A stretch of DNA of 64,000 bases. It comes from Paenibacillus rhizosphaerae (lineage in GTDB: Bacteria; Bacillota; Bacilli; Paenibacillales; Paenibacillaceae). Below are positions 4,791-61,906 of this stretch, one piece after another (the stretch's first letter is position 1; the number at the start of each line of letters is the position of its first letter). The stretch covers positions 1,488,001-1,552,000 of the forward strand of contig NZ_JACHXJ010000002.1 in the NCBI RefSeq assembly GCF_014192015.1, written 5' to 3'. Made by a program: the position numbers and the translations under genes. The notes beneath the pieces are model-generated. The model was not told the origin of the DNA, did no database searches, and saw nothing but the letters and a program-made list of their open reading frames with translations.

Positions 4791-4941
4791 TCGGACGATG
4801 ACATCATCATCCTTGACGCCAGCGGGAATCAATCAACGGCATAGAAGCCAGTTCATGAACGATGCAAACCTTCCGTTTTGCCATCAGCTGCTGCGTTCAT
4901 AAACGAGAACTACATGCCAGCCAATAGTGCTCGAAGCTATG

Positions 4942-14347: not shown

Positions 14348-15411
14348 ACAAATTAACAAAATATGCTTCGCCGTTGCTCCAACCTCTTATAGCTGTTCTG
14401 GTTGGCCTATTGGCTGGAGCTATCGCGATTATGATATCCGGTGGAGATGTACTTGAAACCTACACCGAGGCATGGAAGGGCGCATTCGGAGGATTTTATT
14501 TCACGACGAATACCTTAACACGAGCAACGCCGATTATTTTAGTAGGGCTCGGTGCGGCCTTTGCCTTTCGAGCAGGCTTTTTTAACTTGGGGGCGCCCGG
14601 ACAGATGATCTTCGGAGCATTGGTGGCGGCTTTGGTTGGCTTATACATGCCGGGTCCCGGTTGGCTGGTGTGCATTGCAGCTCTTATAGCCGGAGTGGCG
14701 GCAGGGGGATTATGGTCTGTAATGGCAGGGTATTTTGATGCCAGATTCGCTGTGAATTTGCTGATCTCAACACTGCTGCTGAACTACATCGCGGATCTGT
14801 TTGCCGGTTATCTTGTGGCTTATCCACTGAAGGATACTTCAGGCTCCGCTGCGATGGCGCAGTCAGCGATGTTGGATAAATCCGTATGGCTGCCCAAGAT
14901 ATTTTCCGGAATGCCTCTTCATCTTGGATTTGTTTTTGCTGTCGTTGGTTCGCTTATTATTTATGTTCTTCTTAAACGTTCCGTGGCCGGCTATGAAATT
15001 CGAATGCTCGGTGGAAATCCGTTGTTTGCTTTATACGGAGGCATTAACAGAGGTTCTATGATGATCATTTCGATGTTCATAAGCGGCGGACTGGCCGGTC
15101 TCGGCGGTGCGGTGGAAATATTGGGATCACAATACCGCTACATCGACGGTGCCCTCACCAGTGCAGATTACGCATGGACAGGCATAATGGCCGCACTCCT
15201 TGCCAGTTCGAATCCGATCGGTACGATGATTGCCGCCGTATTCTTGGCTGCGCTGCAGACGGGCGGGATGGGCGTAGAGCGGAATACCGAGGTCCCTCTC
15301 GAGGTAGGGGCTATTATCCAGTCGGTGCTTATTCTGTTTATTTCCGCACGATTTACTTACAGCTTCTGGAAGCGCAGAAAGGGGATTAAGTCACATGGAA
15401 CAGCTGTTTGA
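14344..15411 (+). CDS. Nucleoside ABC importer permease, subunit 1
   Basis: This 355-residue BPD_transp_2-type permease has about eight to ten hydrophobic segments and the family's FNLGAPGQMIFGA segment, which recalls the FNIGAEGQ motif of YufP-like permeases. The start overlaps the ATPase stop by 4 bases, and its end overlaps the second permease by 17 bases. It forms the heterodimeric pore with the next protein. Confidence 0.9.
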   Translation: MNKLTKYASPLLQPLIAVLVGLLAGAIAIMISGGDVLETYTEAWKGAFGGFYFTTNTLTRATPIILVGLGAAFAFRAGFFNLGAPGQMIFGALVAALVGLYMPGPGWLVCIAALIAGVAAGGLWSVMAGYFDARFAVNLLISTLLLNYIADLFAGYLVAYPLKDTSGSAAMAQSAMLDKSVWLPKIFSGMPLHLGFVFAVVGSLIIYVLLKRSVAGYEIRMLGGNPLFALYGGINRGSMMIISMFISGGLAGLGGAVEILGSQYRYIDGALTSADYAWTGIMAALLASSNPIGTMIAAVFLAALQTGGMGVERNTEVPLEVGAIIQSVLILFISARFTYSFWKRRKGIKSHGTAV

Positions 15412-26777: not shown

Positions 26778-28790
26778 ATGAAATTTCAATTGAATGACTT
26801 TACTTTCGACCTGCGGGCCAGCCTGGCGCCGCCTAATCACATTTGGGTCGCCAGCGGTTATAGTACGGTAGCCCCGCTCCCCAATACGGTAGCGGGAGTG
26901 AAAGGCTTATTTTCTCCGCCGTTCGCGGCTCGCGATGTACAGCTGCTGTTGAATATCGAAGCAGACGGTCATACCGTAAGCGACACCGGAAACCTGGGCA
27001 AAGGTGACTGCGGACTGTTATACGCTGGGGCAGAATGGCGGCCGGACCGTATTGCGCGACGCGGGACGTATCACTATTTTCACGAGGGCAGGCTTATTTC
27101 TTTGTTCGTGCAGAGCCGTCTTGTGCCACTCGCGGACCGGGCTGGCTTTCTGCTAGCTGTTCGTATCGCCAACCGTACGGAGCGGAGCATTGAGGTGCTC
27201 GTCAAGCCTCAGTTAACGTCAGGACGGCTCTGCTTGCAGCCGCTCGACGACTGGGACTATGGGCATCCGGCACCGGGAGAACCTGCGCAACCAATCAGCG
27301 ACGACGTATGGGAAAACGAAGATGTGCGGATGTCCCTGTTGCACGATGCCTCGATGCCGTCGTATCTGGCACCGGGAGAAGATGTGGAGCGCTGCATGGC
27401 TGTTGTACTGACGCGCAGCGGCGAGGAAAGCGACAACACCGAAAGCTTGGCGGTTTGGGAAAAACGGACGGAAGTGAGATGGCAGGATCGGATCGACCAC
27501 ATGTGCGCATCCCTGCCGAAGTTGGAAAGCGATATCCCTGGTCTGGAAGACTATTACCGGCGCTCGCTCGTCAGCGGCTTGATCTGTCTGTGGGAGCATC
27601 CCGATTTCGCTATGCAGCCGTTCCCGGTCGTGTCGGGCATCGAGGGTGCGGGAATTTGCTGCTACCCGTGGGACACGGGTGGGTATGCAGGCAGACTGCT
27701 TGCAATGATGATCGGCAGCGAAAGCATGATGGAACTGGCACAGCTCATGGCGAACAGTGGCATTGAGCGGCATTCGCGATTTTCTCCAAGTGGTATTGGT
27801 AAGGACGTACCGTACTCATACAGTTTGTGGTCGTTCTTCAATCTGATCTGGAGCAATATGGAGCAGCATGGTGAAGGCCAGCAGATGTATGACGTGATGC
27901 GGAGTCTGCTGCTCTGCGACGAGGACAGGCTGCCTGCCTGGGGTGTGCTGCTCGATTACGGCAAACAGCACAACCTGCTGGAAATGCGCAGCGCGGCGCA
28001 TGAGCATGTTGTCTCAAGTCCTAACGCCGAGCGGGCATGGTGCTACGACCGACTGGCTGACTTGGCCGAGCGGCTGGGAAGGGGAGAAGCGGAACGGTGG
28101 CGGGATAAAGCGGAACAAATTCGGCGTGCGATTCGCGAGCAACTGTGGGACGAAGAAGCGGGATGGTTTGTCTGCCGTTATCCGGACGGGCATGTGGAGC
28201 GGGTGTATACGATTCAAGCCTACGATACGCTTCGAATGGGCGCTTGTACCGAACCGATGAAGTCTGCCTTGTTATCGCACGTACGAGAGGGTGCATTCCT
28301 CGCCCCTTACGGTGTCAGCAGCATTTCGGAAGAAGATACGATTCATTACGAACTGAACGATCCGGACTGGTCGGGCGGAGGCTGCTATACAGGCGAAGCG
28401 ACCATGCTGGCTCAAACGTTATGGGAAATTGGCGAAGCTGAGCTGGCGTGGGATGTACTGAAGCGACTGTTCTGGATGGGACGGCATTTGCCGTATTTTC
28501 CCCAGGAGCACTACTGCGACCGTCCGGCCGTCCCAAGCCACAAACGAGCCAATGTCATCGCTGGCTTGTCCGGCGCGGAAGCGATTTTGTTTGGAATGGC
28601 CGGCCTGAAGCCAGGAGCGGACGGCAAGCTGACGGTATTACCGCATCCGCCGCATGAAGGGAAAGTTTCTGTGGAGGGCTATTTATTCCGAGGCCGCAGC
28701 ATTGATATCCATATGGAGCCGGGATATAGCAGAATCGTATGTGATGGCGTCGTCATTTACGAAGGTGCTCCCACCCTCTGCACTATATAA
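26778..28790 (+). CDS. Six-hairpin (alpha/alpha)6 glycoside hydrolase
   Basis: The 670 residues have an N-terminal beta-rich domain (about 1-230), a helical barrel with [14 protein letters not shown] near residue 295 (the WDTG Asp is the likely general acid, as in trehalase-like and GH63-like enzymes) and [19 protein letters not shown] near 532. A small beta C-terminal domain ends the protein. No signal peptide, so it acts inside on imported oligosaccharide. AAGGAAGG lies upstream of the ATG. I cannot assign a CAZy family with certainty. Confidence 0.8.
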
Positions 28791-32646: not shown

Positions 32647-33245
32647 AGCACCTACGCGTATGCTGCCCATGAGCTAAAAACGCCACTTGCCGGTATTATT
32701 GCGAATATTGAGGTGTTACAACTGGATAAAAATCCATCCGTTCAGGAATATAAGGAGGTTTTGGACGATACCCTTACAAACGCCCAGCGGCTGAGTACCC
32801 TGGTATATGATTTGCTGAAGATGAATAACGCCATTCAGGCTGATACCTGTAAAACTTTTGATGCGAAAGAACGGAAAACAGCAAAGTTAAACATGTCCGC
32901 ATACAAAACAATATCTCAGATATTATGCTATTCGGTGAAAGAGCGCTTTTGCAGAGGGCTTTCTTTAATCTTGTTCAGAACGCCGTGAGATACAATAAAT
33001 TGAACGAAGAAGTAATGGTTACGGCAGCCCAGCATGGTAATTTTGTCACTGTCAGAATCAAGGATAACGGCATAGGCATTCCTGAAGAGGAATTAGAAAA
33101 TATCTTCGAACCATTCTATAGAATTGACGCATCCCGTTCCAGGGAATTGGGAGGCAGTGGGCTTGGGCTTTCCATCACAAAAACCATCGTAGAAAAGCAC
33201 GACGGAGAAATTTTATTTGAAAGTGAAATCGATTCCGCTCCTAGG
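32647..33245 (+). pseudogene. Histidine kinase remnant, N-terminus lost and frameshifted
   Basis: The first part encodes the dimerisation helix with the phosphoacceptor motif AAHELKTPLAGIIANIEVL, without any sensor domain or start codon. After about 32860-32895 the frame shifts by one and continues as a HATPase domain: QNAVRYN (N box), DNGIGIP (G1), FEPFYRID (F box) and GGSGLGLSI (G2). Close to the end of the ATPase domain it runs into an ABC permease fragment. Kinases of this type (KHK with PAAG-type permeases) often partner peptide-antibiotic sensing transporters. It is not functional as it stands. Confidence 0.85.
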
Positions 33246-33474
33246 CGCATCACCGTGGCTATTAAAACTCACCCCAGCTGCTGGGTTCGCGATCCAGCAG
33301 AGTTTAACGGAGTACCCCCACGTAATCGGTGCCTATGTACCGCAGATGGGATATTACCCATTGACACCATGGGCTGGCTTTGCTGTGCTTTGCGGTTACA
33401 CTGCGCTGGCTTTCGGTCTGGCCGTCTTCATGCTGCAACGTGAACATATGAGGCAGGTTATCTCAAGGCTATAA
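33217..33474 (+). pseudogene. C-terminal fragment of an ABC-2-type permease
   Basis: The frame encodes LKLTPAAGFAIQQSLTEYPH, then YPLTPWAGFAVLCGYTALAF and a final hydrophobic helix, a familiar end of ABC-2-type permease subunits of bacitracin/lantibiotic-like exporters. It has no proper start and begins inside the kinase remnant. The junction of the two fragments is near 33225-33250. The whole looks like the scar of a lost kinase-transporter locus. Confidence 0.75.
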
Positions 33475-33547
33475 CAAATATGTCAGGGTCTAATTGAGGA
33501 TATCTTGTACAGTCAGCGTTTGGTGTTATCCGCCCCCCTTTGAATGA

Positions 33548-33730
33548 TGTGCAAACTTTGCTGCTAGTGGCCTAACTGCACAAGGATTGGCGATTTTTGC
33601 TGGTGATGGAAGTGTGGGTAAGCCCTGGATGGACCCCAAAGATAATGTTTTTGTTATCCCTTTTCTCGTAATTGTAATTGTTGCGTTTTTGTATGGATTC
33701 GTTAGAAGTTTTATTGAGCGTGGTCATTGA
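33548..33730 (+). pseudogene. C-terminal remnant of a small membrane protein
   Basis: Sixty codons are open without a start. They end in a hydrophobic segment VFVIPFLVIVIVAFLYGFVR and stop at TGA 33728-33730, the base before a family B repeat. The arrangement (gene end touching the repeat) is the same as in the gene string at 52-61 kb. Confidence 0.45.
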
Positions 33731-33812
33731 ACTAACGGAGAACGTTTTGTTGAATAACGAACAGGAAGAAGCTGCCGATGCTGATCGGCAGCATTAAATT
33801 AACGGGCAGGAA
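33731..33812. repeat. Family B repeat, copy B0
   Basis: It begins ACTAACGGAGAACG, contains the TTGAATAA block and the hairpin GCTGCCGAT/ATCGGCAGC (33771-33792), and ends with AAATTAACGGGCAGG. It has the same order of parts as the copies at 52921 and 53574. Confidence 0.75.
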
Positions 33813-33827
33813 AACGAAAATAACATC

Positions 33828-33856
33828 TTTACTTCAGTGAATATTCTAACTATAAT
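33828..33856 (+). promoter_or_regulatory. Promoter in front of the ZTP riboswitch
   Basis: TTTACT (33828-33833), 17 bases, TATAAT (33851-33856). A start near 33863 would place the riboswitch aptamer at the very 5' end of the RNA. Confidence 0.65.
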
Positions 33857-33869
33857 TACAGTGAACATT

Positions 33870-33942
33870 TGGTATGTGTGACTGGCGTAAACGTGGAGAC
33901 CCACTAGGGAGCACATATTGTCATATGCCGTACGCCTGGGCA
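33870..33942 (+). promoter_or_regulatory. ZTP (pfl motif) riboswitch aptamer
   Basis: The conserved pieces of the pfl motif are in order: P1 strand TATGT (33873-33877), GTGACTGGCG, P2 stem GTGG/CCAC (33893-33904), GGGAGC closing with P1 strand ACATA (33913-33917), then the second domain GCCGTACGCCTGGGCAG (33927-33943). This class binds the folate-stress alarmone ZTP/ZMP. A terminator hairpin follows directly at 33941-33980, so ligand binding should allow read-through. The recognition rests on remembered consensus motifs. Confidence 0.85.
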
Positions 33943-33980
33943 GAGGTAAGGGAGAGGTATCCCTTACCTCTGTGTGTTTT
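33941..33980 (+). terminator. Riboswitch-controlled terminator
   Basis: CAGAGGTAAGGGA pairs perfectly with TCCCTTACCTCTG, followed by TGTGTGTTTT. The left arm overlaps the last aptamer bases (GGGCAG), which is the expected switching arrangement. Confidence 0.85.
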
Positions 33981-33991
33981 AGGAGGTAAGC

Positions 33992-34030
33992 ATGATGTTC
34001 CAGAGAGAATGCGCTCGATCTGATTTTTAA
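33992..34030 (+). CDS. Very short frame behind the ZTP riboswitch (12 codons)
   Basis: AGGAGGTAAGC is an excellent ribosome site in front of ATG 33992, but the frame ends after 12 codons (MMFQRECARSDF). It may be a leader peptide or, more likely, the stump of the gene the riboswitch originally served, since deleted. The NIPSNAP gene begins 58 bases later. Confidence 0.4.
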   Translation: MMFQRECARSDF

Positions 34031-34088
34031 AAAGTCGAAATAGATGTGTGCTGGATTACCAATCAGATTCATTCAGGGAGGAAATAAC

Positions 34089-34415
34089 ATGCTATACGAG
34101 TTGCGAATCTATACGATTTACGAAGGTCGAATGGATGCCATTCAAGACAGATTTAAGGAGCATACGTTTAGAATTTTTACAAGACTGGGAATGAAGGTCG
34201 TGAATTTCTGGATAGATGCAACAGGCCAAAATAAACTATATTATGTGATGGAATTTAAGGATATGGAGCAGCGTCAAAGGCTATGGGAGCAGTTTAAGAA
34301 TGACATCGAATGGATTCAAGTAAAACGCAACTCGGAAGAAAATGGAGGGCTCATAGTCGAAAAAATTGATGAATATTTTATGAATCACGCTGAATTTTTC
34401 AGATTGGAAAATTAA
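34089..34415 (+). CDS. NIPSNAP-family protein
   Basis: The 108 residues begin MLYELRIYTIYEGRMDAIQD and contain FTRLGMKVVNFW, the characteristic start and core of the NIPSNAP dimeric alpha/beta barrel fold. The biochemical role of bacterial NIPSNAP proteins is unsettled. ATG 34089 is preceded by AGGGAGGAAATAAC. It is the first full gene after the ZTP riboswitch and so may be under its control, unlike the usual purine and folate genes. Confidence 0.85.
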   Translation: MLYELRIYTIYEGRMDAIQDRFKEHTFRIFTRLGMKVVNFWIDATGQNKLYYVMEFKDMEQRQRLWEQFKNDIEWIQVKRNSEENGGLIVEKIDEYFMNHAEFFRLEN

Positions 34416-34424
34416 ACCAACGTT

Positions 34425-34447
34425 GAGCAGGCCACAGCAGCCTGCTC
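34425..34447 (+). terminator. Stem-loop after the NIPSNAP gene
   Basis: GAGCAGGC pairs with GCCTGCTC across a 7-base loop; no T-run follows, so termination is uncertain. Confidence 0.5.
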
Positions 34448-34460
34448 ATGTGTTGAGTCA

Positions 34461-52224: not shown

Positions 52225-52393
52225 CTTGCCGTGAATTAACACGATTTCGGGATTAAAAGTGCGGCTGTTGTCGCATTCTGATTCCATAGAAACTGGAAGC
52301 CGACATCGTGGAGGATCTCTTCTTCGGATCGTTCAAATATGTTGTTCAGTTACCAGGAATATAAGGCAATGGGTTATTTCGTAAGGATAATGG

Positions 52394-52426
52394 GGGATAG
52401 CTAACGGGCAGGATAATTTAGTTAGC
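52394..52426. repeat. Family B repeat, copy B1 (partial)
   Basis: GGATAGCTAACGGGCAGG followed by ATAATTTAGTTAGC. It keeps the core and first inverted pair but lacks the second hairpin. It marks the left edge of the AT-rich gene string. Confidence 0.65.
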
Positions 52427-52670
52427 CGGAGACAATTTTGATTGTGAAGTAAGCATGCAATAACCATACCCAATATAAAGTGTTCTTGCGCGGGCTGAAG
52501 CTTGCTTCACAGCCGACCCAGTGATAAAGAATGTTGAAATCCTACGATTGAACGGGTTTATGTGAGATAACCCCTTAAAAACAAGGGGCAGACGATATTC
52601 CTTATTAATTTATACATTGGTATATTGATGGTATTTGAACTAATGTATAAATTAGGGAAAGGGATGATGA

Positions 52671-52904
52671 ATGGTGCCGCCAGAAGTAAAAATAATTTCT
52701 ATAGGAATTACTATTTTTCTTGTACTTTGGACTGGAGCCGCTTTGTTCGCCACTATAAAACCAAAAACGTTTTGGAGTTTAACCCAAGGATGGAAGGCAA
52801 CACGTGAACCTTCAACTGCCTATTTTATATTTTCTCGAATTGGAACTGCAATATGTGCAATCTTAGGTCTTATATTGTTAATCTCACCATATTTACACAA
52901 ATAA
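52671..52904 (+). CDS. Small membrane protein (DUF6199-like), 77 residues
   Basis: It has two hydrophobic helices (about 8-26 and 52-72) flanking a FWSLTQGWKATREPSTAY segment that resembles the small DUF6199 proteins of Firmicutes; this match is from memory. AAAGGGATGATGA precedes ATG 52671. AT-rich compared with the importer genes on the left. A family B repeat begins 17 bases after its stop. Confidence 0.65.
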   Translation: MVPPEVKIISIGITIFLVLWTGAALFATIKPKTFWSLTQGWKATREPSTAYFIFSRIGTAICAILGLILLISPYLHK

Positions 52905-52920
52905 GTTATAACTATCCGGA

Positions 52921-53010
52921 ATTACGCTAACGGGGAACGATAGTTGAATAAACGACCAAGACGAAGCTGCCGGCGCGTATCGGTAGCTTCATTACGCTAA
53001 CGGGCAGGTT
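52921..53010. repeat. Family B repeat, copy B2 (complete)
   Basis: ATTACGCTAACGGGGAACGA, TAGTTGAATAAA, hairpin GAAGCTGCCG/CGGTAGCTTC (52963-52990), then ATTACGCTAACGGGCAGG. The core GCTAACGGG occurs at both ends. Confidence 0.85.
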
Positions 53011-53151
53011 TGTTCCAATATGTGGTGTATTTAAATGGGGTAAATTGGTATATCTTTGGTTATAGGAAGTCAACTGCTCCCCCTATACATGACGCAACTT
53101 AAAGTGGACCATAGTTACCTAATTAAGAATCCAGTTTAAGGGGGAAAACTG

Positions 53152-53583
53152 ATGCGCTACTTTCTCATGATAAATGCTCTGAGCGCTATCTTTGCATTAT
53201 TACCATTTATAATGAGTGAAATGTTAGTTAATGTCTATAGAATAAATCGAATTACTGGCGTTGAAATTGCAGTTATAGATAGGGTTAATGCAGTTATCGG
53301 TCTTCTATGCTTTTCCTTTTCAATCATAACGTTTGTGTTCATGATAAAAAAACGATTTCTCCCCTCTAAAAAGACTAACTTATTTTCCTCCATAATCTGG
53401 GTTCCATATTACTGGCTATACATTAGTATTTTTGCATCCCAATTTCCAATAACGAATCCGGCGGATAAAGCTAATCCTGCTTCCGGATTCATTATCATTG
53501 CAGGATTATTACTCTATCCGATCATATTGGCTGGAATGAATGCTATTGCTTTATTGTTAAAGAGTCACAACTCTTTAAGCTAA
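53152..53583 (+). CDS. Small integral membrane protein, unknown function
   Basis: This 143-residue protein has four hydrophobic segments (about 5-25, 46-68, 78-98 and 113-136) with short loops. No family recognised. GGGGG lies 8 bases before the ATG. Its stop codon TAA (53581-53583) is the TAA of the family B core GCTAACG, so the repeat provides the end of the gene. Confidence 0.7.
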   Translation: MRYFLMINALSAIFALLPFIMSEMLVNVYRINRITGVEIAVIDRVNAVIGLLCFSFSIITFVFMIKKRFLPSKKTNLFSSIIWVPYYWLYISIFASQFPITNPADKANPASGFIIIAGLLLYPIILAGMNAIALLLKSHNSLS

Positions 53584-53660
53584 CGTGAACCGATAGCTTA
53601 ATAAAAACAAGAAGCCAGCCGATCACTTTGACCGGCTGGCTTTATTAAACTAACGGGCAG
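53574..53660. repeat. Family B repeat, copy B3 (complete, contains a stop codon)
   Basis: TTTAAGCTAACGTGAACCGA then TAGCTTAATAAA (TTAAGCTA/TAGCTTAA inverted pair), hairpin AAGCCAGCCG/CGGCTGGCTT (53612-53643), then ATTAAACTAACGGGCAGG. Confidence 0.85.
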
Positions 53661-53920
53661 GATAGCGCAACAGCGTGTATGTGTAAGAACATCAAGGTGT
53701 TGGGAATCCTTACTGAATACATGGAGGTCATCGTATAGAGATGACCGGCAGACTTTTCACAACTAAAGGGAGGATAGTTGATTAAGAACCACACTTTAAC
53801 AAAAAAACCATAGTGATGGACCTTTTGATCTCTTCTTACACGTGTCATTATCAAGATTAAGGCAGTTCTGTTAGGGTTTAAAGCACTGATTTAAAAATTG
53901 TATTTAATTGGGGGGCAATG

Positions 53921-55294
53921 ATGATTACTCATGAACTCAAAGTTATTGAACGAATGTCTGAAGGCGATGGGTTATCTTTGGAGTTTAAGGGACTATTGAT
54001 TGAAGGAGTGTCTATTGACTCCAGAACGGTAAAGCCAGGTAATTTATTTGTCCCCATTATAAGAGAGTTAGATGGACATAATTACGTTAATGAAGCAATA
54101 TCTAAAGGAGCAATTGCGTCCTTTTGGCAAAAGGATCACCCCAATCCTCCAGGTCATCTACCGTTAATTTATGTAGATGATTGCTTAGAAGCTTTACAAA
54201 AATTAGCGGCACAATATCGACAAGAATTACAAGTCAAAGTTATTGGTGTTACAGGTAGTAATGGTAAAACAACTACAAAAGAGATGCTAAATTCTGTTTT
54301 ACAGACAAAATTTCGAGTTTATAAAACAGAAGGAAACTTAAACAGTCAAGTAGGTGTTCCATTAACGATATTAGGGATAAATAAAGATGCTGAAATTGCA
54401 ATAATTGAGATGGGGATGAGTGAAAGAGGGCAAATGGAGCAACTTTCTCGTATTACCAACCCTGACATAGCTGTAATTACAATGATAGGTGTTTCCCATC
54501 TATCAAGCCTCGGCTCCAGAGAAACAATAGCAGCAGCAAAGTTGGAAATCGTTACTGGTCTAAAGAATGGTGGATGTTTTGTTTTCAACGGTGACGAGCC
54601 ATTATTGACTAAAGAAATCTTCAAAATTAAAAAAAATAGCTCATTAGAAACCATTAGTTTTGGTCACGGGGATTTTAATGATGTGATTGTCGAGAGCGCA
54701 CTATCAAACTCCAATGGTTCCCAATTCTCTGTTGCAAACGATCATTATTACCTTCCACTTCTCGGTGCCCATAATATTAATAATGCGCTTGCTACAATAG
54801 CCATTGCTCTAAGGTTGGGCTTAAATTCTGCTGAAATAAATGAAGGATTTCTTCATTTGAAATTGCCTGATATGAGATTGGAGAAGATCATTTCACCATC
54901 GGGATTCACCATAATTAATGATGCATGGAATGCTAGTCCGGATTCGGTAAATGCAGCAATTAAGACTTTTCAAGAGCTGACGGGTTATAATGATAAGCAT
55001 TTAGTCATTGGTGATATGCTTGAACTTGGTGATCATGAAGAAGAGTTCCACCGAGTCATTGGTAAAAACCTTGATCCGGATAAAATAAACTATATTTATA
55101 CATTCGGTGATCTTAGTTACCATATTGCATCAGAAGCAATAAAGAGATATCCAACAGGTGCTGTAAAAACATTTAAAGATAAAATGGGGTTGGCAAATGC
55201 ACTAAACCAAGCAATTAAGAAAAATGATGTGATTTTGTTAAAAGCATCAAGAGGGATACAGATTGATTCAATTATCCCATTCTTAGTGAAGTAA
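53921..55294 (+). CDS. murF: MurF-type UDP-MurNAc-pentapeptide ligase, AT-rich paralogue
   Basis: This 457-residue Mur ligase has an N-terminal UDP-binding domain (GVSIDSRTVKPGNLFVPI), ATP-binding loop GVTGSNGKTTTKEML, the metal/ATP segment EMGMSERGQMEQL, IGVSHLSSLGSRE, NNALATIAIAL, and the C-terminal DAWNASPDSV and LGDMLELG. MurF joins D-Ala-D-Ala to UDP-MurNAc-tripeptide. All main motifs are intact. It is not in a cell-wall gene cluster but in an AT-rich string of small genes, so it is probably a second copy. ATG 53921 has better spacing than 53918. Confidence 0.9.
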   Translation: MITHELKVIERMSEGDGLSLEFKGLLIEGVSIDSRTVKPGNLFVPIIRELDGHNYVNEAISKGAIASFWQKDHPNPPGHLPLIYVDDCLEALQKLAAQYRQELQVKVIGVTGSNGKTTTKEMLNSVLQTKFRVYKTEGNLNSQVGVPLTILGINKDAEIAIIEMGMSERGQMEQLSRITNPDIAVITMIGVSHLSSLGSRETIAAAKLEIVTGLKNGGCFVFNGDEPLLTKEIFKIKKNSSLETISFGHGDFNDVIVESALSNSNGSQFSVANDHYYLPLLGAHNINNALATIAIALRLGLNSAEINEGFLHLKLPDMRLEKIISPSGFTIINDAWNASPDSVNAAIKTFQELTGYNDKHLVIGDMLELGDHEEEFHRVIGKNLDPDKINYIYTFGDLSYHIASEAIKRYPTGAVKTFKDKMGLANALNQAIKKNDVILLKASRGIQIDSIIPFLVK

Positions 55295-55310
55295 TCACTT
55301 TAATTCAACA

Positions 55311-55378
55311 AATAGAGGAGCAGTCCTGCCGGCGGCAGCTGCTCTATTTTTTACGCTAACGGGCAGTTTTACGCAACA
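55311..55378. repeat. Family B repeat, copy B4
   Basis: The hairpin ATAGAGGAGCAG/GCTGCTCTAT (55312-55346) with a T-run is followed by TTACGCTAACGGGCAG and TTTTACGC. Its first core is missing, and the hairpin doubles as the murF terminator. Confidence 0.75.
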
Positions 55379-55442
55379 CCGCATTGATAGCATATATCGT
55401 GGTAAAATGATACATTAATAAAATTTGAAATTGAAAGGGGGG

Positions 55443-55612
55443 ATGTCAGTGGAATCACTGATAATTACCTCTATACCCGAATGGGATCAAACCTCCATCA
55501 TAGCTACGTTGTGTGAAAATGAACAGGTTAACGTGTTACAGCAGAGCTTTCTTTGAAGGTCATTGGAACCGGATACCCGATTGAGCAGACCACCAAACAA
55601 CTTGTTAAGTGA
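55443..55612 (+). pseudogene. Short frame-disrupted gene remnant
   Basis: ATG 55443 reads SVESLIITSIPEWDQ through NVLQQSFL and stops at 55556. In the next frame AELSLKVIGTGYPIEQTTKQ continues to TGA 55610-55612. The two pieces look like one small protein split by a +1 shift near 55535-55550. Family unknown. Confidence 0.4.
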
Positions 55613-55624
55613 TTGGAGGATGGT

Positions 55625-56113
55625 ATGAGGAAAATTGATTGGATCAAAGTCATTCTAGCATTGTCGTTATTCGTAAATGTTTTTTTATTTATGAATCATA
55701 AACATGATAACCGAAATCAAGAATTGAAATATGAGATATTGAATGCATCCATTTATCGAGATCTAGCTCAACTTGAAGCAACGATACAGGATCAAAAAGA
55801 TCATAATTGGAAAAATGAAGCTCTTGTTGTCCAGAAACTGGATGATGCTATGGAATCAATTATTATGCGCATAGGAATGGAAAGAGAAGACGATAAGGAA
55901 ACGCTCCTATGGAAATTACACGATTACATGAAAAAGATCGTGGTTGGTGATGGAACTTTATCTTTAGATATTAGTCTAAACGATAAGCAACGTGCCGATT
56001 ACATCTATTTAGGCGAGAAGCTGCGTTCTAGCGGGTGGAGTTTTAATAGAAGGTTTGATACAAACTGGGATAATTTTTCATTAAAGTTACAAGAGCTCGT
56101 AACGGAGTCATAG
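55625..56113 (+). CDS. Membrane-anchored small protein, unknown function
   Basis: The 162 residues begin with a short basic stretch and one hydrophobic helix (IKVILALSLFVNVFLFM, about 6-24), then a soluble, probably helical extracytoplasmic domain. GGAGG lies 5 bases before ATG 55625. No family recognised. It is AT-rich, and a family B repeat follows 67 bases after the stop. Confidence 0.65.
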   Translation: MRKIDWIKVILALSLFVNVFLFMNHKHDNRNQELKYEILNASIYRDLAQLEATIQDQKDHNWKNEALVVQKLDDAMESIIMRIGMEREDDKETLLWKLHDYMKKIVVGDGTLSLDISLNDKQRADYIYLGEKLRSSGWSFNRRFDTNWDNFSLKLQELVTES

Positions 56114-56180
56114 ACAGAACTGCTTGTACGGATACAATCCAGGCAAATGCGGCTGCTTCGATCCAGATCGGTGTACTTCG

Positions 56181-56262
56181 ATACGCTAACGGGTACGATA
56201 GCTAAATAAAGAAGGTTGAAGGCAGCCGTCTATTTTTGACAGCTGCCTTTACTTAATTTTAA
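56181..56262. repeat. Family B repeat, copy B5 (complete)
   Basis: ATACGCTAACGGGTACGA, TAGCTAAATAAAGAAG, then hairpin AAGGCAGC/GCTGCCTT (56219-56249) and TTACTTAATTTTAAGGAC where the second core would be. Confidence 0.8.
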
Positions 56263-56507
56263 GGACAGATGGCATAAACCCTACTGTCATGAAAACGAAA
56301 ATACACATGTTCCTCATCATCTATGACATAAGCAATCCGTTTCCAATGCTTCAAGGTCATATAAAACGAATATAAATCACTACCACATCCGGCAGCATTC
56401 GAAGCCAATAATAGACCTGTGAAAATCCCTCCATAGACAAGTAAATAATACGTTACAACGAAGGGCGGTCTACCGTAGGGAAACCATCTAAGTGGGATTT
56501 GAATCAA
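56259..56507 (-). CDS. Possible small membrane protein or remnant (minus strand)
   Basis: This 82-residue frame has a hydrophobic middle (VVTYYLLVYGGIFTGLLLAS) and an ordinary-looking C-terminus (AYVIDDEEHVYFRFHDSRVY). It would start at TTG 56507 with no ribosome site and an in-frame stop just upstream, so it may be a truncated gene. It is the only minus-strand candidate in this part. Confidence 0.3.
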   Translation of the reverse strand: MIQIPLRWFPYGRPPFVVTYYLLVYGGIFTGLLLASNAAGCGSDLYSFYMTLKHWKRIAYVIDDEEHVYFRFHDSRVYAICP

Positions 56508-57023
56508 CTGCGTTTTTTAGGCCTGTTTCGCTTCCGATTGGATGCCGATGTCTGGATTAAAGAGGTAATCAGCGGACTTGAGGTACGATAACAAAAGACT
56601 TTCCCGCACAGGGTGGAAACTTTTTCGATATCGTCCGATCTCAACTCGGAATCGAAATGAAGTAAGGATGATCCTCCTCTGGGGAGATCATAACGACGAA
56701 AGTATAAAGGGTCAGACCAGGGCAGAAAGAGGAAAACAAGAAATCGGGTTTTTGAACAAAAAATGACTGTTTTTTCAATATTCAACTCAGATTATTGAAA
56801 CTATAATGTAAAAAGAATTTTCATCATGTATGATTCGCTCCGATCGACAATCTCTTGGATTACGGGTTACAAAACTGAAAAAAGGGGGGGAATGGGGTTA
56901 TATTGATTATTTTGTAAGCGCATTCAAAGTATAAGTCTTTTTATTTTTTCATTATCGTTGTTTCAGGAATGTATGCAAACTAAAAACCCGACAGTTCAAA
57001 TCTCTTAAAGGAGGAAAGAAAAA
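56508..57023. other. Upstream region of the pectinase gene with a cre-like box
   Basis: There is no convincing gene in this 516-base stretch. TATAAT lies at 56802-56807 without a good -35 box. A cre-like sequence TGTAAGCGCATTCA (56913-56926) differs from consensus only at the fixed T after CGN. A run of eight G lies near 56883-56890. GGAGGAAAG precedes the gene start. Confidence 0.45.
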
Positions 57024-60000
57024 ATGCGAAAGTCACAGCACAAACTCGTATCCCTGGCGCTGGCCATGTGCCTGTCGCTGTTCGCCTTCAGCGTCCCTGC
57101 CGAGGCCGATGATACGGCGACCAGTCTGCGCCCGATGGAGTACCTGACACGCGGCTTGGTCGCCGCCCAGGTCCCCAGCGGCATTTTCCTGAGTTGGCGC
57201 TTCCTGGGAGACGAGCCCGATGGCCTCTCCTGGAACGTCTACCGCAAAGACGGTGACGCGGGCTTTGTGAAGATCACCACCATCACTCCCCGCGATGTAC
57301 AGCCCGAGAGCAACTACGAGACAAACCCTGGAATTGTGAAAGAAAACGTCACCCCGTCTAACTACACCGACCCGGACGGCCTCATAACATCCATCTATGA
57401 GGTGGCGCCGGTCATCCATGGCGTTGAGGGGTTGAGGCAGGGCATGTCCGTACCCATGTTGTCGGCCTTGGCGGGAAGCTCGGGGCAGGCCAACAGGGGC
57501 GCCGTGCAATATATCCCGATGAAACCGGCCCCGGCTCCGGTGCCGCTCGCGCACTTCATCTACCGAGACTACAGGTTTGGCCCGGGTACCAATCTAACCA
57601 CGGCTAACATGGTTATCCCCGGTACGGGCGGCCAGAACTGGTACGTTGTCGATATGGATTTGCTCAGGGCTTTCCGCGAACCCCATGACAACAAGACCCC
57701 GGTCAGCGTTACGGACCTGAGCGGATGGGTCGACAAGCTCAACGGGTACAACCATGAAACCTGGCAGCCGACCCATTCCCTCGGGACTGATGGAATCATC
57801 AGCGACGCCCTGTTCGCCGAGCTGGAAGCCAAGTTCATAAAATACGTCGAGGATCTGGACTACGGCACCAAGCTCCCTTACGCGAAAACCAGCACCGGCG
57901 CGATATATACGTCACAAAGCAGCCCCTACTCCACCCACGACATGACGGTGGGCGATTTTGACGGCGACGGTGAATACGAGATCGTCGTGAAGTGGCGCAG
58001 TACCCAGCAAGATCCCATGTATTCCGAACCGATATTTGGTGGCAGTAATACCACAACCGCTCCCGAGTACATAGACGTGTACAAGCTGGACGGCACGCTG
58101 CTGTTCCGCGTCGACATGGGCTATAACGTAAGAGCGGGCAACGACCATGAGACCACCTTGTTCTGCCAAGACTTTGACGGTGACGGCAAGGCTGAGCTGA
58201 TGCTCAAGACCGCACTAGGAACCCGTATTGGCAACTGGGACGAAGAGTCGCAGTCCGTCATTTATCCGGACACTCTCAACACTGTCGTGGGCGGCGATGA
58301 CGGCCTGAATGCCACCACGGACAAGTTCAAGGAATACTTCGCCACCGGCAACGAACAGGCCCTCGATACCTACTGGGCGCTCCTTAACAGCTTCACCATC
58401 TCCTACCGTAGCCCGATAGCCGGAGGTGGTAACGACGGAATCAATGATCCGGCCGTAAAACGGTGGATCAAGACATACCACGTCGGCCCGATCGGCCCCG
58501 CCAAAGACGACCAGGAATTTTTCTCGGCCTTTAAGTGGGACCCCGACACTGGCAAGGGCGTGCTCGTGGACAGCGCCAAATATCCCTTCCCCTACGAGGG
58601 CAGCGTCGACGGCGAGAACTGGGCCATGACGGCCGAGACCCAGCGCGGCAATTTCTCTTATCTGGCATTCCCCGGCCCCGGCGCTGGTAGTTCTTCGAGT
58701 GATTATAAAGCGCAGATCATGGCCGAGAAGGAGGCATACTGGCTTGAGCATCCCTGGAAGGCGGCCGTGTGGGGAGACGCGCAGGGCAACCGCGCCAACC
58801 GCTACGTCGGCGTCGTGGCCGCCCTTGATGGCGTTAACAACTACGCCGTCTCCCAGCGCGGCTACTACGCAAGGACGACCTTCGCCGCCTACAACATTGT
58901 GGACGGAAAGGTAAACCTTCAGGCCTGCTTCGACTCCGCTGACCCGCGGTACTGGGCCTTGGGCGGCACCGCCTACGACTACCAGAACCGCGGCAACCAT
59001 CAGACCCAATCCGCCGACCTCGACGGCGACGGACGGGATGAGATCGTGATGAAAGCCATGGTCCTCGACCTGAACGCCGATAAGACCATGATCCTGCCCA
59101 AGGTAGTCAACGGCGACATCATGCCGACAATCGAAGGGCAGAACAGCATCCCTCCGGTTGCTAACAGCTTTGAGTTCGCCACTGACGCGGTCCGGAACAA
59201 CAAGCTGAATGTGTGGGCTCCTCTCCGCCATGGCGACCGCAGCGCGTTGCTTCCGGTCGATAAGGACAACAACATCCGCATGTGGTCCGGCAACGAGGAG
59301 CACTTGCTGGACGACATACGCAACGGCAGGCAGTATGGATGGCTGCCCGGGCCGGAGGCTCACGACCCGATGAAGGGCAAGCGGCTGAACGAGCAGGGCG
59401 AGATCATCTATGAAAACTCACTCATCTTCGGCGTATACGCCGGTAGCGACGCCGAGGGTGCGGTGGCCGGCAACTTCTCTAACCGCTGGCCCGGCGCCCA
59501 GGGATACTCACAGAACGGCGCCAGGAGCATGATCACCGGCGAGCTCCTGAACGGCAGCAGAAACTTGGGCAGTGGCCAGTACGCCATCTGGTTTGGTGGC
59601 GGCCTGACGGCCATGGCCGTCAGCAGCGCCACTATCAGCACGGTCAACGACCAGACCTTCGAGACATCCTCATATCTCGCGACCGACCTTACGTCGACCG
59701 GCAATAAAAACACACCTACACTCAAGGCCGACATGTTTGGAGACTGGCGCGAGGAGCTCATTCTCCGGGCCAGCAATAACCGTCTGGCCATCGTCACGAC
59801 CTTGTCGCCGACCGAGTACGGCATCCGCACGCTGATGCATGACCCGATGTACCGCAACGGCGTGGCCAATAAGAACACCGGCTACGATCAGATGGGGTTC
59901 GCCAGCTTCTATCTGGGCGACGAAGCTGAGCTGCCCACCATGAGGACCGATATCGCTGTTCCGACGATGGCCCCCAATGCCCAAATCCAGGTTAGTGTTC

Positions 60001-60437
60001 AAAGCGTGACGGCGAACGCAATCGGGATCGAATGGGCCCCAATCTCAGGCGCTACTTCCTATACCCTGTACAGGGACGGTGTGAAGATCGATAAAATCAC
60101 CAGTACGAGCTATCTTGACAAGGGCCTCGAGCAGGGGAAAGAGTATAGCTACACCGTGACCCCGAGCGACGATGTGAACTCAGGCGTGGGATCTCTCCCG
60201 CTGCATGTCACGACCAAGACGGCTACCGTCAAGGCTTCGGTCAAGAAGCTCAAAGGCAACCAGAACGGTCTGACGATCACGGTCACGGAAAACAATCTCG
60301 AGGGAACCCCGACGAATTACACGGAGAGCTACAGCATCAACAACAACGCCGTCGCTACCTATGTGGTCGGTCCGTACGAAGTCTATGTCGATACCAAGAG
60401 CAACACCCAGGTCCGTGAGTGCTACATCGTGAAGTAA
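57024..60437 (+). CDS. Secreted rhamnogalacturonan lyase (PL11) with fibronectin type III domain
   Basis: The 1137 residues start with a signal peptide (about 1-28, cleaved after AEA). The PL11 propeller shows MEYLTRGLVAAQVPSGIFLS, SWNVYRKDG, calcium-type loops DFDGDGEYE, DFDGDGKAE and DLDGDGRDE, and DMFGDWREELILRA. An FN3 domain lies at about 995-1075, then a short tail. PL11 enzymes cut rhamnogalacturonan I of pectin outside the cell. It is far longer than typical PL11 catalytic proteins (about 600), mostly through inserts near residues 410-560 and 690-800. It is GC-rich, unlike its AT-rich surroundings. Confidence 0.9.
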   Translation: MRKSQHKLVSLALAMCLSLFAFSVPAEADDTATSLRPMEYLTRGLVAAQVPSGIFLSWRFLGDEPDGLSWNVYRKDGDAGFVKITTITPRDVQPESNYETNPGIVKENVTPSNYTDPDGLITSIYEVAPVIHGVEGLRQGMSVPMLSALAGSSGQANRGAVQYIPMKPAPAPVPLAHFIYRDYRFGPGTNLTTANMVIPGTGGQNWYVVDMDLLRAFREPHDNKTPVSVTDLSGWVDKLNGYNHETWQPTHSLGTDGIISDALFAELEAKFIKYVEDLDYGTKLPYAKTSTGAIYTSQSSPYSTHDMTVGDFDGDGEYEIVVKWRSTQQDPMYSEPIFGGSNTTTAPEYIDVYKLDGTLLFRVDMGYNVRAGNDHETTLFCQDFDGDGKAELMLKTALGTRIGNWDEESQSVIYPDTLNTVVGGDDGLNATTDKFKEYFATGNEQALDTYWALLNSFTISYRSPIAGGGNDGINDPAVKRWIKTYHVGPIGPAKDDQEFFSAFKWDPDTGKGVLVDSAKYPFPYEGSVDGENWAMTAETQRGNFSYLAFPGPGAGSSSSDYKAQIMAEKEAYWLEHPWKAAVWGDAQGNRANRYVGVVAALDGVNNYAVSQRGYYARTTFAAYNIVDGKVNLQACFDSADPRYWALGGTAYDYQNRGNHQTQSADLDGDGRDEIVMKAMVLDLNADKTMILPKVVNGDIMPTIEGQNSIPPVANSFEFATDAVRNNKLNVWAPLRHGDRSALLPVDKDNNIRMWSGNEEHLLDDIRNGRQYGWLPGPEAHDPMKGKRLNEQGEIIYENSLIFGVYAGSDAEGAVAGNFSNRWPGAQGYSQNGARSMITGELLNGSRNLGSGQYAIWFGGGLTAMAVSSATISTVNDQTFETSSYLATDLTSTGNKNTPTLKADMFGDWREELILRASNNRLAIVTTLSPTEYGIRTLMHDPMYRNGVANKNTGYDQMGFASFYLGDEAELPTMRTDIAVPTMAPNAQIQVSVQSVTANAIGIEWAPISGATSYTLYRDGVKIDKITSTSYLDKGLEQGKEYSYTVTPSDDVNSGVGSLPLHVTTKTATVKASVKKLKGNQNGLTITVTENNLEGTPTNYTESYSINNNAVATYVVGPYEVYVDTKSNTQVRECYIVK

Positions 60438-60471
60438 AACTCCAAGAGACCGGCACAACAAATTAAAAGCA

Positions 60472-60502
60472 ATCGGAGGGCGGCGCGATGGCGCCCTCCG
60501 AT
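60472..60502 (+). terminator. Stem-loop after the pectinase gene
   Basis: ATCGGAGGGCG pairs with CGCCCTCCGAT (11 bp, 9-base loop), 34 bases after the stop. There is no T-run, so it is a weak terminator or mRNA end protector. Confidence 0.6.
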
Positions 60503-60520
60503 GCGTACATATCAAAAGAG

Positions 60521-60580
60521 AATAAAGTTATAGATCGAAAAATAAAGTGTTAGACTCGGCAAATAAAGTATTAGACTGAC
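60521..60580. repeat. Three tandem copies of a 20-21 base motif
   Basis: AATAAAGTTATAGATCGAAA (60521), AATAAAGTGTTAGACTCGGC (60541) and AATAAAGTATTAGACTGACA (60562) follow at periods of 20 and 21 bases. The array ends in ...GACA. It sits just outside the GC-rich pectinase gene and just before family B copy B6. Confidence 0.75.
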
Positions 60581-60587
60581 AATGCTT

Positions 60588-60620
60588 CATTAAGCTAACG
60601 GGCAGTTATGCTTAATAATC
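60588..60620. repeat. Family B repeat, copy B6 (first half)
   Basis: CATTAAGCTAACGGGCAG then TTATGCTTAATAATC; TTAAGC/GCTTAA is the inverted pair. The second hairpin is not clear. Confidence 0.75.
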
Positions 60621-60730
60621 GCCCTTCTTTTGTTAAAGGTAATTCGAATAAAACCATAAGTTTTAATTATTTAGCACTATAATGGTTATGGGTTATAATT
60701 TACCATAAATTAGTTGGTGGAAGTGTGGAG

Positions 60731-61207
60731 ATGAATGTCTCTTGTACTGCAGCTGGTTTAATTGTAGAAGATGGTCATGTTCTTCTTGTAAAAGTTACTT
60801 ATGGAGCAAATAATGGGCGCTGGATGTTACCAGGAGGTTTTGTTGACGAAGGAGAAACATTTCAGGAAGCCGCAATAAGAGAAGTGCAAGAAGAAAGTGG
60901 ATTGACAGCCAAAGTAAAAAGCCTTCTTGGTCTAAGAGATGGGATTAGAGCTCTTCCGAATGGTAGTGAACACGGAATATACTTAGTATTTGAAATGGAA
61001 GTAACTTCGGGTACTGTTTGTATCGATGGTTATGAGGTTGCTGAAGCTAGATTTTTACCTGTAGAAGAAGCATTGCGAGATCCTTTGGTAATCGATTTAA
61101 CGAAAGAAATGATACTTGGATATCGTTTGAATAATAATGGGTTGCGTCAACTGCAGAAAGCAGTCCAAACTAACAATAGCTGGACTAAATATGAAGTATT
61201 AACTTGA
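60731..61207 (+). CDS. NUDIX hydrolase
   Basis: This 158-residue protein has a complete Nudix box, [20 protein letters not shown] then ESGL, which binds the metal for hydrolysis of nucleoside diphosphate-X compounds. ATG 60731 is chosen over GTG 60725, with GGTGG upstream. The substrate is unknown. It is AT-rich and lies between family B copies B6 and B7, so it forms one unit of the gene string. Confidence 0.9.
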
Positions 61208-61221
61208 GATTCTATTGAGGC

Positions 61222-61244
61222 ATTAAGCTATTGGATACGATAGC
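61222..61244. repeat. Family B repeat, copy B7 (degenerate)
   Basis: ATTAAGCTATTGGATACGAT then AGC keeps the inverted pair but has lost the ACGGGCAG core; it begins 14 bases after the NUDIX stop. Confidence 0.5.
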
Positions 61245-61288
61245 CGAATTCCAGTGATAATTTAATAAGCGACAAAGGAGGTCCCGAT

Positions 61289-61543
61289 ATGGGGGAAAGA
61301 CGATGGGGTATTGTCAAATGGTTCAAAGAAGATAAAGGTTACGGGCGGATCATGTTAGACGGCCAGGACGGTAACCATGTATTTGTTCACTTTAGTGATA
61401 TCCTACCAGACCCAATTAGGTTACCAAACGGTTTTCGGTTTCTTAAAGAGGGCCAAAAAGTTGCATTCGAGCTATTTGAATTTCCGAGCATAGCGGATTC
61501 CCAGCGAAGGACAGCTAAGAATGTGAAAATTTTAGAGGATTGA
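61289..61543 (+). CDS. Cold-shock-domain-like small protein
   Basis: The 84 residues match the CspA-type fold: [15 protein letters not shown] carries the first RNA-binding motif, and HVFVHFSDI the second. An extended loop and a C-terminal helix-like tail replace the usual end at about 66 residues. AAAGGAGGTCC, a near-perfect ribosome site, precedes the ATG. Probably an RNA-binding protein; a variant rather than a standard Csp. Confidence 0.8.
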
Positions 61544-61906
61544 AGCATCGTGACATGGGTTCTCGGTAAAGAGATAAATATTAAACGCACCTGTTTTACC
61601 CAAGAATTTCTCAGCATTTACAATTATAACGGACATGGCACAAAAAGAAGATATAGAGACTATTAAGGACCCTCTAGCAAATTATCTCAAAATAAAATTT
61701 TATAGCGATCAAATTTCGAACAATACGATGTAGTTATTAATAATTATACCTTCCAGAAAATAGTATAGGGAGAATCATTGCCTTGCTAGGTAAGAGGATA
61801 CGGATAAAGATTACAAATTTATGTTAATGATTCTAAGCTTGAAACCTTCTATGGCAAATACCCATACCTTCACTAATTTATGTTAATTTAATTATCAAAA
61901 AATGGG
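61544..61906. other. AT-rich intergenic region, 363 bases
   Basis: It contains a 32-codon frame (61635-61733, MAQKEDIETIKDPLANYLKI...) without a ribosome site, perhaps a remnant. No structured element was recognised. Confidence 0.4.

Follow-up and report, generated by a model that had tools for sequence, protein, structure and literature searches.

Short directional sites joining gene, hairpin and integrase units in Paenibacillus rhizosphaerae and its relatives: a candidate integron-like cassette system of Gram-positive bacteria

The subject of this analysis is a row of genes separated by short repeated sites at positions 52400-61543 of a 64,000-nucleotide stretch of Paenibacillus rhizosphaerae DNA (hereafter the window; NCBI RefSeq assembly GCF_014192015.1, contig NZ_JACHXJ010000002.1, positions 1,488,001 to 1,552,000 of the forward strand). 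It is likely that the arrays of the Paenibacillus group to which this row belongs are an integron-like cassette system of Gram-positive bacteria in which the integrase travels as a cassette, and that a chromosomal array of such mobile gene cassettes has one of its ends in the window region. Units would follow one another head to tail, joined by a short directional site, and would be of three types, namely gene units (mostly with one open reading frame, ORF), hairpin units of approximately 70 bp and an integrase unit, found mainly in relatives, whose ends are of a similar kind. A Xer-like tyrosine recombinase, usually of 280-287 amino acids, would bind the site arms and exchange strands in the site centre; two direct sites would release a circle, and a circle could enter at any site.

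Three forms of the core pattern were used: RCTAACGGGCAG, the core of the R site (one of two site types), was counted in the organism's own genome (7.55 Mb), GCTAACGGGCAG was used for the window and the longer RCTAACGGGCAGNATA for 150 genomes (the own genome and 149 relatives); genomes, contigs and loci are designated by G, C and L numbers. In the window, GCTAACGGGCAG gave 12 matches with up to two mismatches compared to a shuffle mean of 4.32 (standard deviation 1.93), and none of 100 shuffles reached 12. Seven of the 12, all on the plus strand and with four exact copies, fall within 52400-60605, as expected from an earlier note, made from the window sequence without database searches, which had described repeated core elements at gene ends here. 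Across the own genome 93 exact copies of RCTAACGGGCAG were found compared to one match for the reversed control pattern. These were clustered, with mostly uniform orientation per cluster: 44 at C2:1540-1768 kb, close to the contig end, 15 at C1:1873-1954 kb, nine at C6:450-493 kb, seven at C1:39-59 kb, nine on C14 and six on C15, with single cores at C2:1398 kb, at C6:386 kb and on C16. A core lies within 1 kb of a contig end on both C1 and C2. The RCTAACGGGCAGNATA pattern was present in 73 of the 150 genomes (72 of the 149 relatives), and the 12-base core numbered 56 copies in G009, 37 in G075, 15 in G045 and 58 in G141 (control matches 2, 4, 5 and 2, respectively). All 37 cores of G075 are on one strand; the control of G045 is not negligible, yet 13 of its 15 cores are within 2156-2294 kb on one strand.

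L and R sites were read in stretches of five genomes. The R site approximates to ATTAARCTAAC-GGGCAG-GATAGTTTAAT, with arms inverted at 9 of 11 positions (by eye) around a GGGCAG centre, the core RCTAACGGGCAG being joined to GATAG-like arms. The L site has the R-site arms around a GGGNNNC centre (RCTAACGGG, two to four variable bases, CGATAGYT) which is approximately one base longer, with variation between single sites. A full element consists of an L site, a GC hairpin and an R site, with approximately 70 bp from L to R. Among 55 full elements, 44 different 5' hairpin arms were found and the median folding z-score was -5.05 against mononucleotide shuffles, in agreement with the earlier claim that the second, GC-rich hairpin varies in sequence and keeps its pairing. 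The GC hairpin is strongly paired; pairing of the outer site arms was 0.695 compared to 0.682 in shuffles (54 of 500 shuffles reaching it) and that of the inner arms 0.758 compared to 0.790 (500 of 500), and attC-like pairing of the arms was left unsupported; no covariation of the arms was seen in this shuffle test. The short hairpin units probably act as transcription terminators, and -10 hexamers, sought as a sign of promoters at unit starts, were not enriched (104 of 214 compared to a shuffle mean of 102).

With an ORF threshold of 80 amino acids, 387 of 394 L or R sites lay outside ORFs compared to 26% for random positions; the random placement with respect to gene ends against which the earlier note had set its proposal was not what was found. 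The upstream ORF was on the same strand at 341 of 385 sites, a modest effect since the figure for random positions is 78%. Of units of 250-2600 bp with a same-strand ORF of at least 60 amino acids (n=89), 72 held a single ORF, and a one-ORF cassette with a recombination site at its 3' end is also the arrangement of integrons.

Swapping of units at the core was observed among 616 sites, 510 transposon-end pairs being excluded from the same-upstream set. Sixty site pairs from 27 families had the same downstream and different upstream sequence (three of these were L-R pairs which look like offset matches), while 48 pairs from 30 families had the same upstream and different downstream sequence. 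Identity within pairs switches inside the core: with bases counted from 0, the left arm through base 0 is at background identity in same-downstream pairs and high in same-upstream pairs, whereas from base 12 onward identity is high in the former and at background in the latter. Exchange was seen at L and R sites, R-R pairs numbering 16 in the same-downstream and 33 in the same-upstream set. Base 9 of the L site was variable in both sets (0.44 and 0.40, in 41 and 10 pairs respectively), a hint that it may lie within the strand-exchange overlap. When the ends of homologous segments (at least 250 bp, 80% identity, transposon-end and tandem repeats excluded) were compared to site positions (-10 to +20), 62 of 185 ends fell at sites compared to 6.5 expected, a tenfold excess, and 11 of 94 segments had both ends at sites.

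Content also turns over at a shared locus. G075 and G045, whose dnaA genes are 94.6% identical, share a flank which is 80-90% identical (15 kb G045 bins 66-97% covered); the alignment stops at 481.6 kb in G075 and 2298.9 kb in G045, near the outermost sites at 482.7 and 2293.6 kb. The eight 20 kb bins at 480-640 kb of G075 are only 0-10% covered by G045, and bin coverage at 640-800 kb ranges from 0 to 62%, in blocks. The most similar shared segments (94-96%) were found between G000 and G075, G009 or G045, where dnaA identity is approximately 80%, and between G009 and G045 or G075, where it is approximately 85%, as would be expected from transfer; the remaining shared segments are 77-92% identical, and some segments shared between genomes are not complete units. 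Units recur in several species next to different neighbours.

A search of six core-rich genomes with PF00589 identified genes of approximately 290 codons in or near the arrays of G075, G009, G141 and G139, a partial gene in G065 and none in G045. A candidate for the array-linked tyrosine recombinase which the earlier note had proposed to look for is found in related arrays, and it is not an IntI protein. Within the G075 and G009 arrays that were read, the integrase gene stands in the row as one of the units. In G075 (C1:511858-512727) an L site precedes it by 90 bp, and in G009 (C1:3149475-3150317) it is accompanied by both an L and an R site. The usual catalytic residues are readable in the array integrase. 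Among NCBIfam models it scored 84.1 bits on TIGR02249 (integron integrase; cut-off 265) and best, 183.7 bits, on XerC TIGR02224, likewise under the cut-off (335). Its nearest solved relatives are simple tyrosine recombinases of the XerA/XerD type, namely the Xer-like 4a8e (4.7e-32), XerD 1a0p (2.5e-30) and XerA 5hxy (1.8e-23), while IntI4 (2a3v) gave only 51 bits over 62 residues. Unlike other Xer-type proteins, it is multi-copy and lies beside cassette sites. Approximately 40 of the 150 genomes carry a piece of this integrase at roughly 60% identity or more, many of them decayed; among the matches listed, those below 60% were in G105 (49%) and G055 (43%), followed by Xer-type proteins, mostly at 37% or less. 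Cores were present in 31 of 40 integrase-family genomes compared to 42 of 110 others, the own genome being counted as without (Fisher P = 3e-5).

Integrase loci in a named collection came from Paenibacillus, Cohnella, Brevibacillus, Bacillus sp. and one Bacilli metagenome-assembled genome, and the flanks of the best 80 of 184 loci were surveyed. A site-like match was present within approximately 200 bp upstream in 50 of the 80 and within 250 bp downstream in 52 (controls 40 of 297 windows); weeding by eye removed 12 upstream and 6 downstream matches, leaving 38 and 46. The downstream site is typically ACTAAAGGGCAG, 3' of a GC hairpin. Sites were found on both sides in 23 loci, 20 of which had an ORF of at least 270 amino acids, a length reached in 61 loci (most commonly 280 amino acids, in 32, then 285 in nine and 287 in five). 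Loci with and without the integrase unit have upstream neighbours in common (L251/L255 and L301/L243) as well as a downstream one (L299/L238/L038, the last from the own genome), and in these cases the shared neighbour adjoins an integrase unit in one genome but, elsewhere, either a hairpin unit or a transposon-like end.

A second lineage is represented by an integrase relative of approximately 50% identity, carried by plasmids of Peribacillus, Sporosarcina, Cytobacillus and Niallia and by one labelled Arthrobacter citreus. On pSHB26 of Peribacillus simplex, RCTAAMGGGKSM gave 24 matches (control 0), 20 on one strand and 19 of these in 2.3-37.3 kb; the site centres are GGGTGC (L-like) and GGGGCA (R-like) between arms as in the first lineage, several L-like and R-like sites are 58-59 bp apart around a hairpin, and an R-like site lies just downstream of the integrase gene (169.5-170.4 kb). 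The Sporosarcina plasmid had 10 matches (control 1), with the integrase gene between an L-like site and ACTAAAGGGGCA, and the Niallia plasmid had eight (control 1) spread over 1.44 Mb, with no clear array. The pSHB26 array (L317) also holds three IS110-family transposase genes and a group II intron reverse transcriptase (at 3771-5045, 13256-14584, 27286-28560 and 33182-34456), the IS110-family genes starting or ending approximately 110-170 bp from cores. IS110-family genes and group II introns in this setting recall the parasites of integron attC sites.

A number of observations weigh against a cassette system of this kind. Among 618 units no gene unit was seen inserted between two neighbours that adjoin each other elsewhere (A-X-B as against A-B), the sole candidate for a two-sided empty site being a repeated hairpin unit within G075. 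The earlier note had proposed to look for breakpoints at the core, and the excess at sites has to be set against the two thirds of homology ends (123 of 185) away from them; in a looser between-species set 45 of 63 segments had neither end at a site. In the own genome, which has the largest array seen, the only integrase copy found is internally deleted (C1:44845-45129, flanked by L-like and R-like sites); G045, G051 and G083 carry cores with no integrase above 60% identity among the matches listed, and nine of the 40 integrase-bearing genomes gave no strict core match. The R-like site behind the hairpin of the G075 integrase is short of one base (ACTAAGGGCAG), the G009 copy has an in-frame stop at codon 7 and 57 of the 80 named loci lack a site on one side or on both. 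On pSHB26 no L-like site was found near the upstream side of the integrase gene, and the Sporosarcina gene is oriented against the site direction. Recombination at the sites is itself read from sequence traces, from which we infer a circle, its excision and strand exchange; this, the arrays without an intact integrase and the lack of a two-sided empty site for a gene unit are the weakest links. Against the imperfections of the G075 and G009 copies stand the 20 named loci that have both sites and an ORF, so that the overall likelihood is unaffected.

It is improbable that the sites are instead dif-like and recombined by host XerC/XerD (or XerS), with the cassette recombinase as a passenger. The layout of dif is 11-6-11 and the R consensus can be read in the same way, several arrays have no intact cassette integrase, and Xer-type relatives occur in all 150 genomes; set against these are the co-occurrence of integrase and cores and the difference in site centres between the two integrase lineages. 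The model for such a process would be the pdif modules of Acinetobacter, described (PMC12907356) as gene modules whose flanking Xer-type sites alternate between C/D and D/C and which make up islands in chromosomes as well as plasmids. The present arrays resemble these in having gene modules between short Xer-type sites on chromosomes and plasmids, and differ from that description in that sites are mostly direct, with one orientation per cluster, and that a separate recombinase lies in or near the arrays, pdif modules depending on host XerC/XerD. A XerS paralogue on C14 (C14:11805; 356 amino acids), whose occurrence does not follow core number, was also considered as array recombinase and judged unlikely: of the 18 relatives with a copy at 76-98% identity, six (G014, G026, G030, G047, G067 and G086) gave no strict match to the core, and a close copy is missing from the core-rich genomes G009, G075, G141 and G139.

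Equally doubtful is the proposal that mobility is confined to the integrase element and the hairpin units derived from it, in the manner of an insertion sequence with miniature inverted-repeat transposable elements (MITEs) inserting at gene ends, and that gene units are reshuffled by homologous recombination. The ends of hairpin units do resemble those of integrase units, the two swap at L sites, and the missing empty site for a gene unit is also what would be expected. Swaps occur at R sites too, as the R-R pairs demonstrate, units recur in several species beside different neighbours and, unlike MITE or repetitive extragenic palindromic (REP)-type repeats, R cores are clustered rather than present at all gene ends and the sites form junctions between cargo units. 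The MITE alternative raised by the earlier note could apply to the L-hairpin-R unit alone, whose ends are like those of the integrase unit, and fails for the sites as a whole.

It is very unlikely that the arrays are integrons in the strict sense, in which an IntI relative would act on the folded single strands of divergent attC sites. The composite site does consist of two simple sites around a GC hairpin, and the cargo is integron-like, including Cass2. Orientation relative to replication also has an integron flavour. The sign of the GC skew agrees with the dominant site orientation in 15 of 15 segments, C14 being mixed, and in G141 (dnaA at 7.24 Mb) 37 plus-strand cores lie at 0.40-3.24 and 7.71 Mb and 13 minus-strand cores at 3.63-6.10 Mb, such that 50 of 50 chromosomal cores are co-directional with replication if the terminus is between 3.24 and 3.63 Mb. 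With the exact antipode (3.10 Mb) as terminus, eight plus-strand cores are on the wrong side; the terminus was placed beyond it because the local skew flips further on (+0.107 at 3.105-3.145 Mb, -0.094 at 3.63-3.67 Mb). The G075 antipode (0.66 Mb) falls inside the array, though all cores point one way, and the skew is negative throughout 480-780 kb, contrary to that antipode being the terminus; the arrays of G045 and G009 likewise lie near the termini predicted for these genomes (2.2 and 3.1 Mb, respectively). This orientation could stem from the ordinary gene-strand bias of Firmicutes. Against integrons proper stand the IntI model score, the absence of arm covariation from the shuffle test, exchange at L as well as R sites and the absence of a fixed platform from the arrays read.

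The arrays are like integrons and chromosomal superintegrons in being long, mostly in one orientation and mostly of single-gene cassettes with a site after the gene. Further points in common are a tyrosine recombinase, turnover of content, traces of horizontal exchange, ends like those of transposons next to the array and a similar cargo (GNAT, NUDIX, APH, DinB and Cass2 proteins). They are unlike integrons in that the recombinase is Xer-like and far under the IntI cut-off, that in the G075 and G009 arrays the integrase is one of the units rather than belonging to a fixed intI-attI platform (no search for attI by its function was made), and that hairpin units are separable from genes. The attC consensus is GTTRRRY/RYYYAAC, which RCTAACGGG and TAGTTTAAT fail when read by eye. 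The earlier note had drawn the analogy to integron cassettes and attC sites, and it holds for behaviour (mostly single genes, one orientation, core exchange and shared units) and not for IntI or attC identity; its remarks on the misfit between core and attC and on the missing integrase in the window were both upheld. Integrons are described as extremely rare in Firmicutes in the IntegronFinder 2.0 report (PMC9024848), which gives one complete Firmicutes integron, in Limnochorda pilosa, and a few clusters of attC sites lacking integrases (CALIN). The present system behaves like an integron yet fails tested integron definitions, and it is set apart from pdif modules, of which it likewise fails tested criteria, by its site orientation and by a candidate recombinase of its own.

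A terminator or RNA-processing module with no part in recombination, the other alternative of the earlier note, is scarcely credible: the strong hairpins and the same-strand genes before the sites agree with it and may reflect an additional role of the hairpin, and it explains neither the unit swaps at the core nor the sites beside the integrase gene.

There is just as little to recommend a Tn7-like transposon (TnsABC/TniQ) or a Tn554-like TnpABC trio as the driver of the cassettes. Many R sites are preceded by a sequence of approximately 185 bp which begins with TGTCG and has about four direct or inverted ACAAGAACWT repeats (by a loose count, 25 of 103 R sites in G000, 16 of 35 in G075, 13 of 45 in G009, 6 of 15 in G045 and 2 of 31 in G141); the outer TGTCG end abuts variable sequence and, as a rule, not a core. 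On C14 (L054, 11805-18487) Pfam matches to TnsA-like, Mu-type transposase, TniB/AAA and TniQ proteins lie beside the XerS paralogue, and a related transposon-like end is present at 13.0 kb. The 185 bp sequence may terminate Tn7-like elements that carry an R site immediately within, and these resemblances directly upstream of R sites suggest that transposons could also pick up and spread array segments. A Tn554-like trio, two tyrosine recombinases and a DUF6262 protein, lies in one array (L046, C1:1928584-1932337). In G000 its last gene, TnpC, stops 10 bp short of an R site. In G038, where the relative is decayed, an R site follows the TnpB fragment at approximately 400 bp, where TnpC would end, and the TnpB loci of G009 and G003 have one core-like match each. 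TnpABC was nevertheless judged unlikely as array recombinase, since the 5 kb loci of two of the closest TnpB relatives, in G011 (62%) and G109 (51%), had no core-like match.

The sites and genes of the window region are listed in Table 1. Within 52341-52411, the 60 bp before the first R site match the end of a coding-like sequence in G083 and G042; the match ends at the first core base (52400), from which point the relatives differ. In the window, the core supplies a stop codon here. The stop codon of the gene at 53152 was also confirmed to lie inside the repeat, and a paralogue of that gene at C1:1926414 has a different hairpin 3' of it. A MurF-like ligase is present as an array unit. The earlier picture of a string of small AT-rich genes does not hold for every gene, the PL11 gene being an atypical member of the row which is large and GC-rich. 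The extent given previously, to 61244, was too short: 61233-61554 is 98% identical to C14:8428-8750, the identity beginning inside the L site there, and the array extends further because the cold-shock gene sits in this repeated stretch. The repeats before the R site at 60594 may form a transposon-end-like array (type 2). A search of five relatives for an orthologous window locus gave short matches in four, none in G071 and no synteny. At gathering scores the only Rfam match in the window was a ZMP/ZTP riboswitch (RF01750, 63.4 bits, 33868-33948, plus strand).

Table 1. Sites, genes and repeats of the array end in window coordinates
Positions	Strand	Feature	Basis or remark
52400..52411	+	First R site, GCTAACGGGCAG	Core search
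52671..52904	+	Unit gene, 77 amino acids, DUF6199	Pfam PF19701
52926..53007	+	Full element: L site 52926, GC hairpin ~52961-52990, R site 52996	L to R 70 bp
53152..53583	+	Unit gene, 143 amino acids, without Pfam family	Stop codon within L core
53579..53660	+	Full element: L site 53579, GC hairpin 53612-53642, R site 53649	
53918..55294	+	Unit gene, MurF-like Mur ligase, 458 amino acids	Pfam PF08245, PF02875, PF01225
55355..55366	+	R site without L site	Immediately 3' of terminator-like GC hairpin
55625..56113	+	Unit gene, 162-166 amino acids, without Pfam family	Paralogue C1:1886430
56185..56255	+	L site and GC hairpin	No good R site after
57024..60437	+	PL11 rhamnogalacturonan lyase, 1137 amino acids, GC 58.8%	Pfam PF21348, PF18370
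60516..60580	+	Two to three direct repeats like AATAAAGTRTTAGAC	Before R site
60594..60605	+	R site	Core search
60725..61207	+	Unit gene, NUDIX hydrolase, 160 amino acids	Pfam PF00293
61225..61250	+	Decayed L-type site, AAGCTATTGGATACGATAGCCGAAT	
61289..61543	+	Unit gene, cold-shock domain protein	Pfam PF00313

Eighty of the 89 unit proteins were scanned for families, nine short ones being excluded. The commonest were GNAT (seven), APH-type phosphotransferases (six), short-chain dehydrogenases and DinB (five each), NUDIX (four) and HAD (three), and two proteins matched Cass2, described as integron-associated. For these 80 proteins PADLOC gave matches to 10 families, with PDC-S07 in four proteins. 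A phage collection yielded 596 matching records, every one below 60% identity. No recognisable description of this system was found in searches of open-access PMC papers, and one may be in print elsewhere.

Taken more broadly, the integron-like cassette system may be a separately evolved Gram-positive counterpart of the integron, free of a platform, in which recombinase, terminators and genes are all interchangeable units of one array. It would comprise two or more lineages, enzyme and site centre having diverged in step, and would have been carried by plasmids and Tn7-like transposons among Paenibacillus and its kin, Bacillaceae and Planococcaceae; the chances for and against this wider view appear evenly balanced. 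If true, an unrelated system doing the work of integrons in Firmicutes would help to explain gene turnover in Paenibacillus. It would also provide an independent test of what a cassette system needs, be it a fixed platform, a folded single strand or a common promoter, and would offer a new directional pair of recombinase and site, the two lineages of which make site recognition directly testable.

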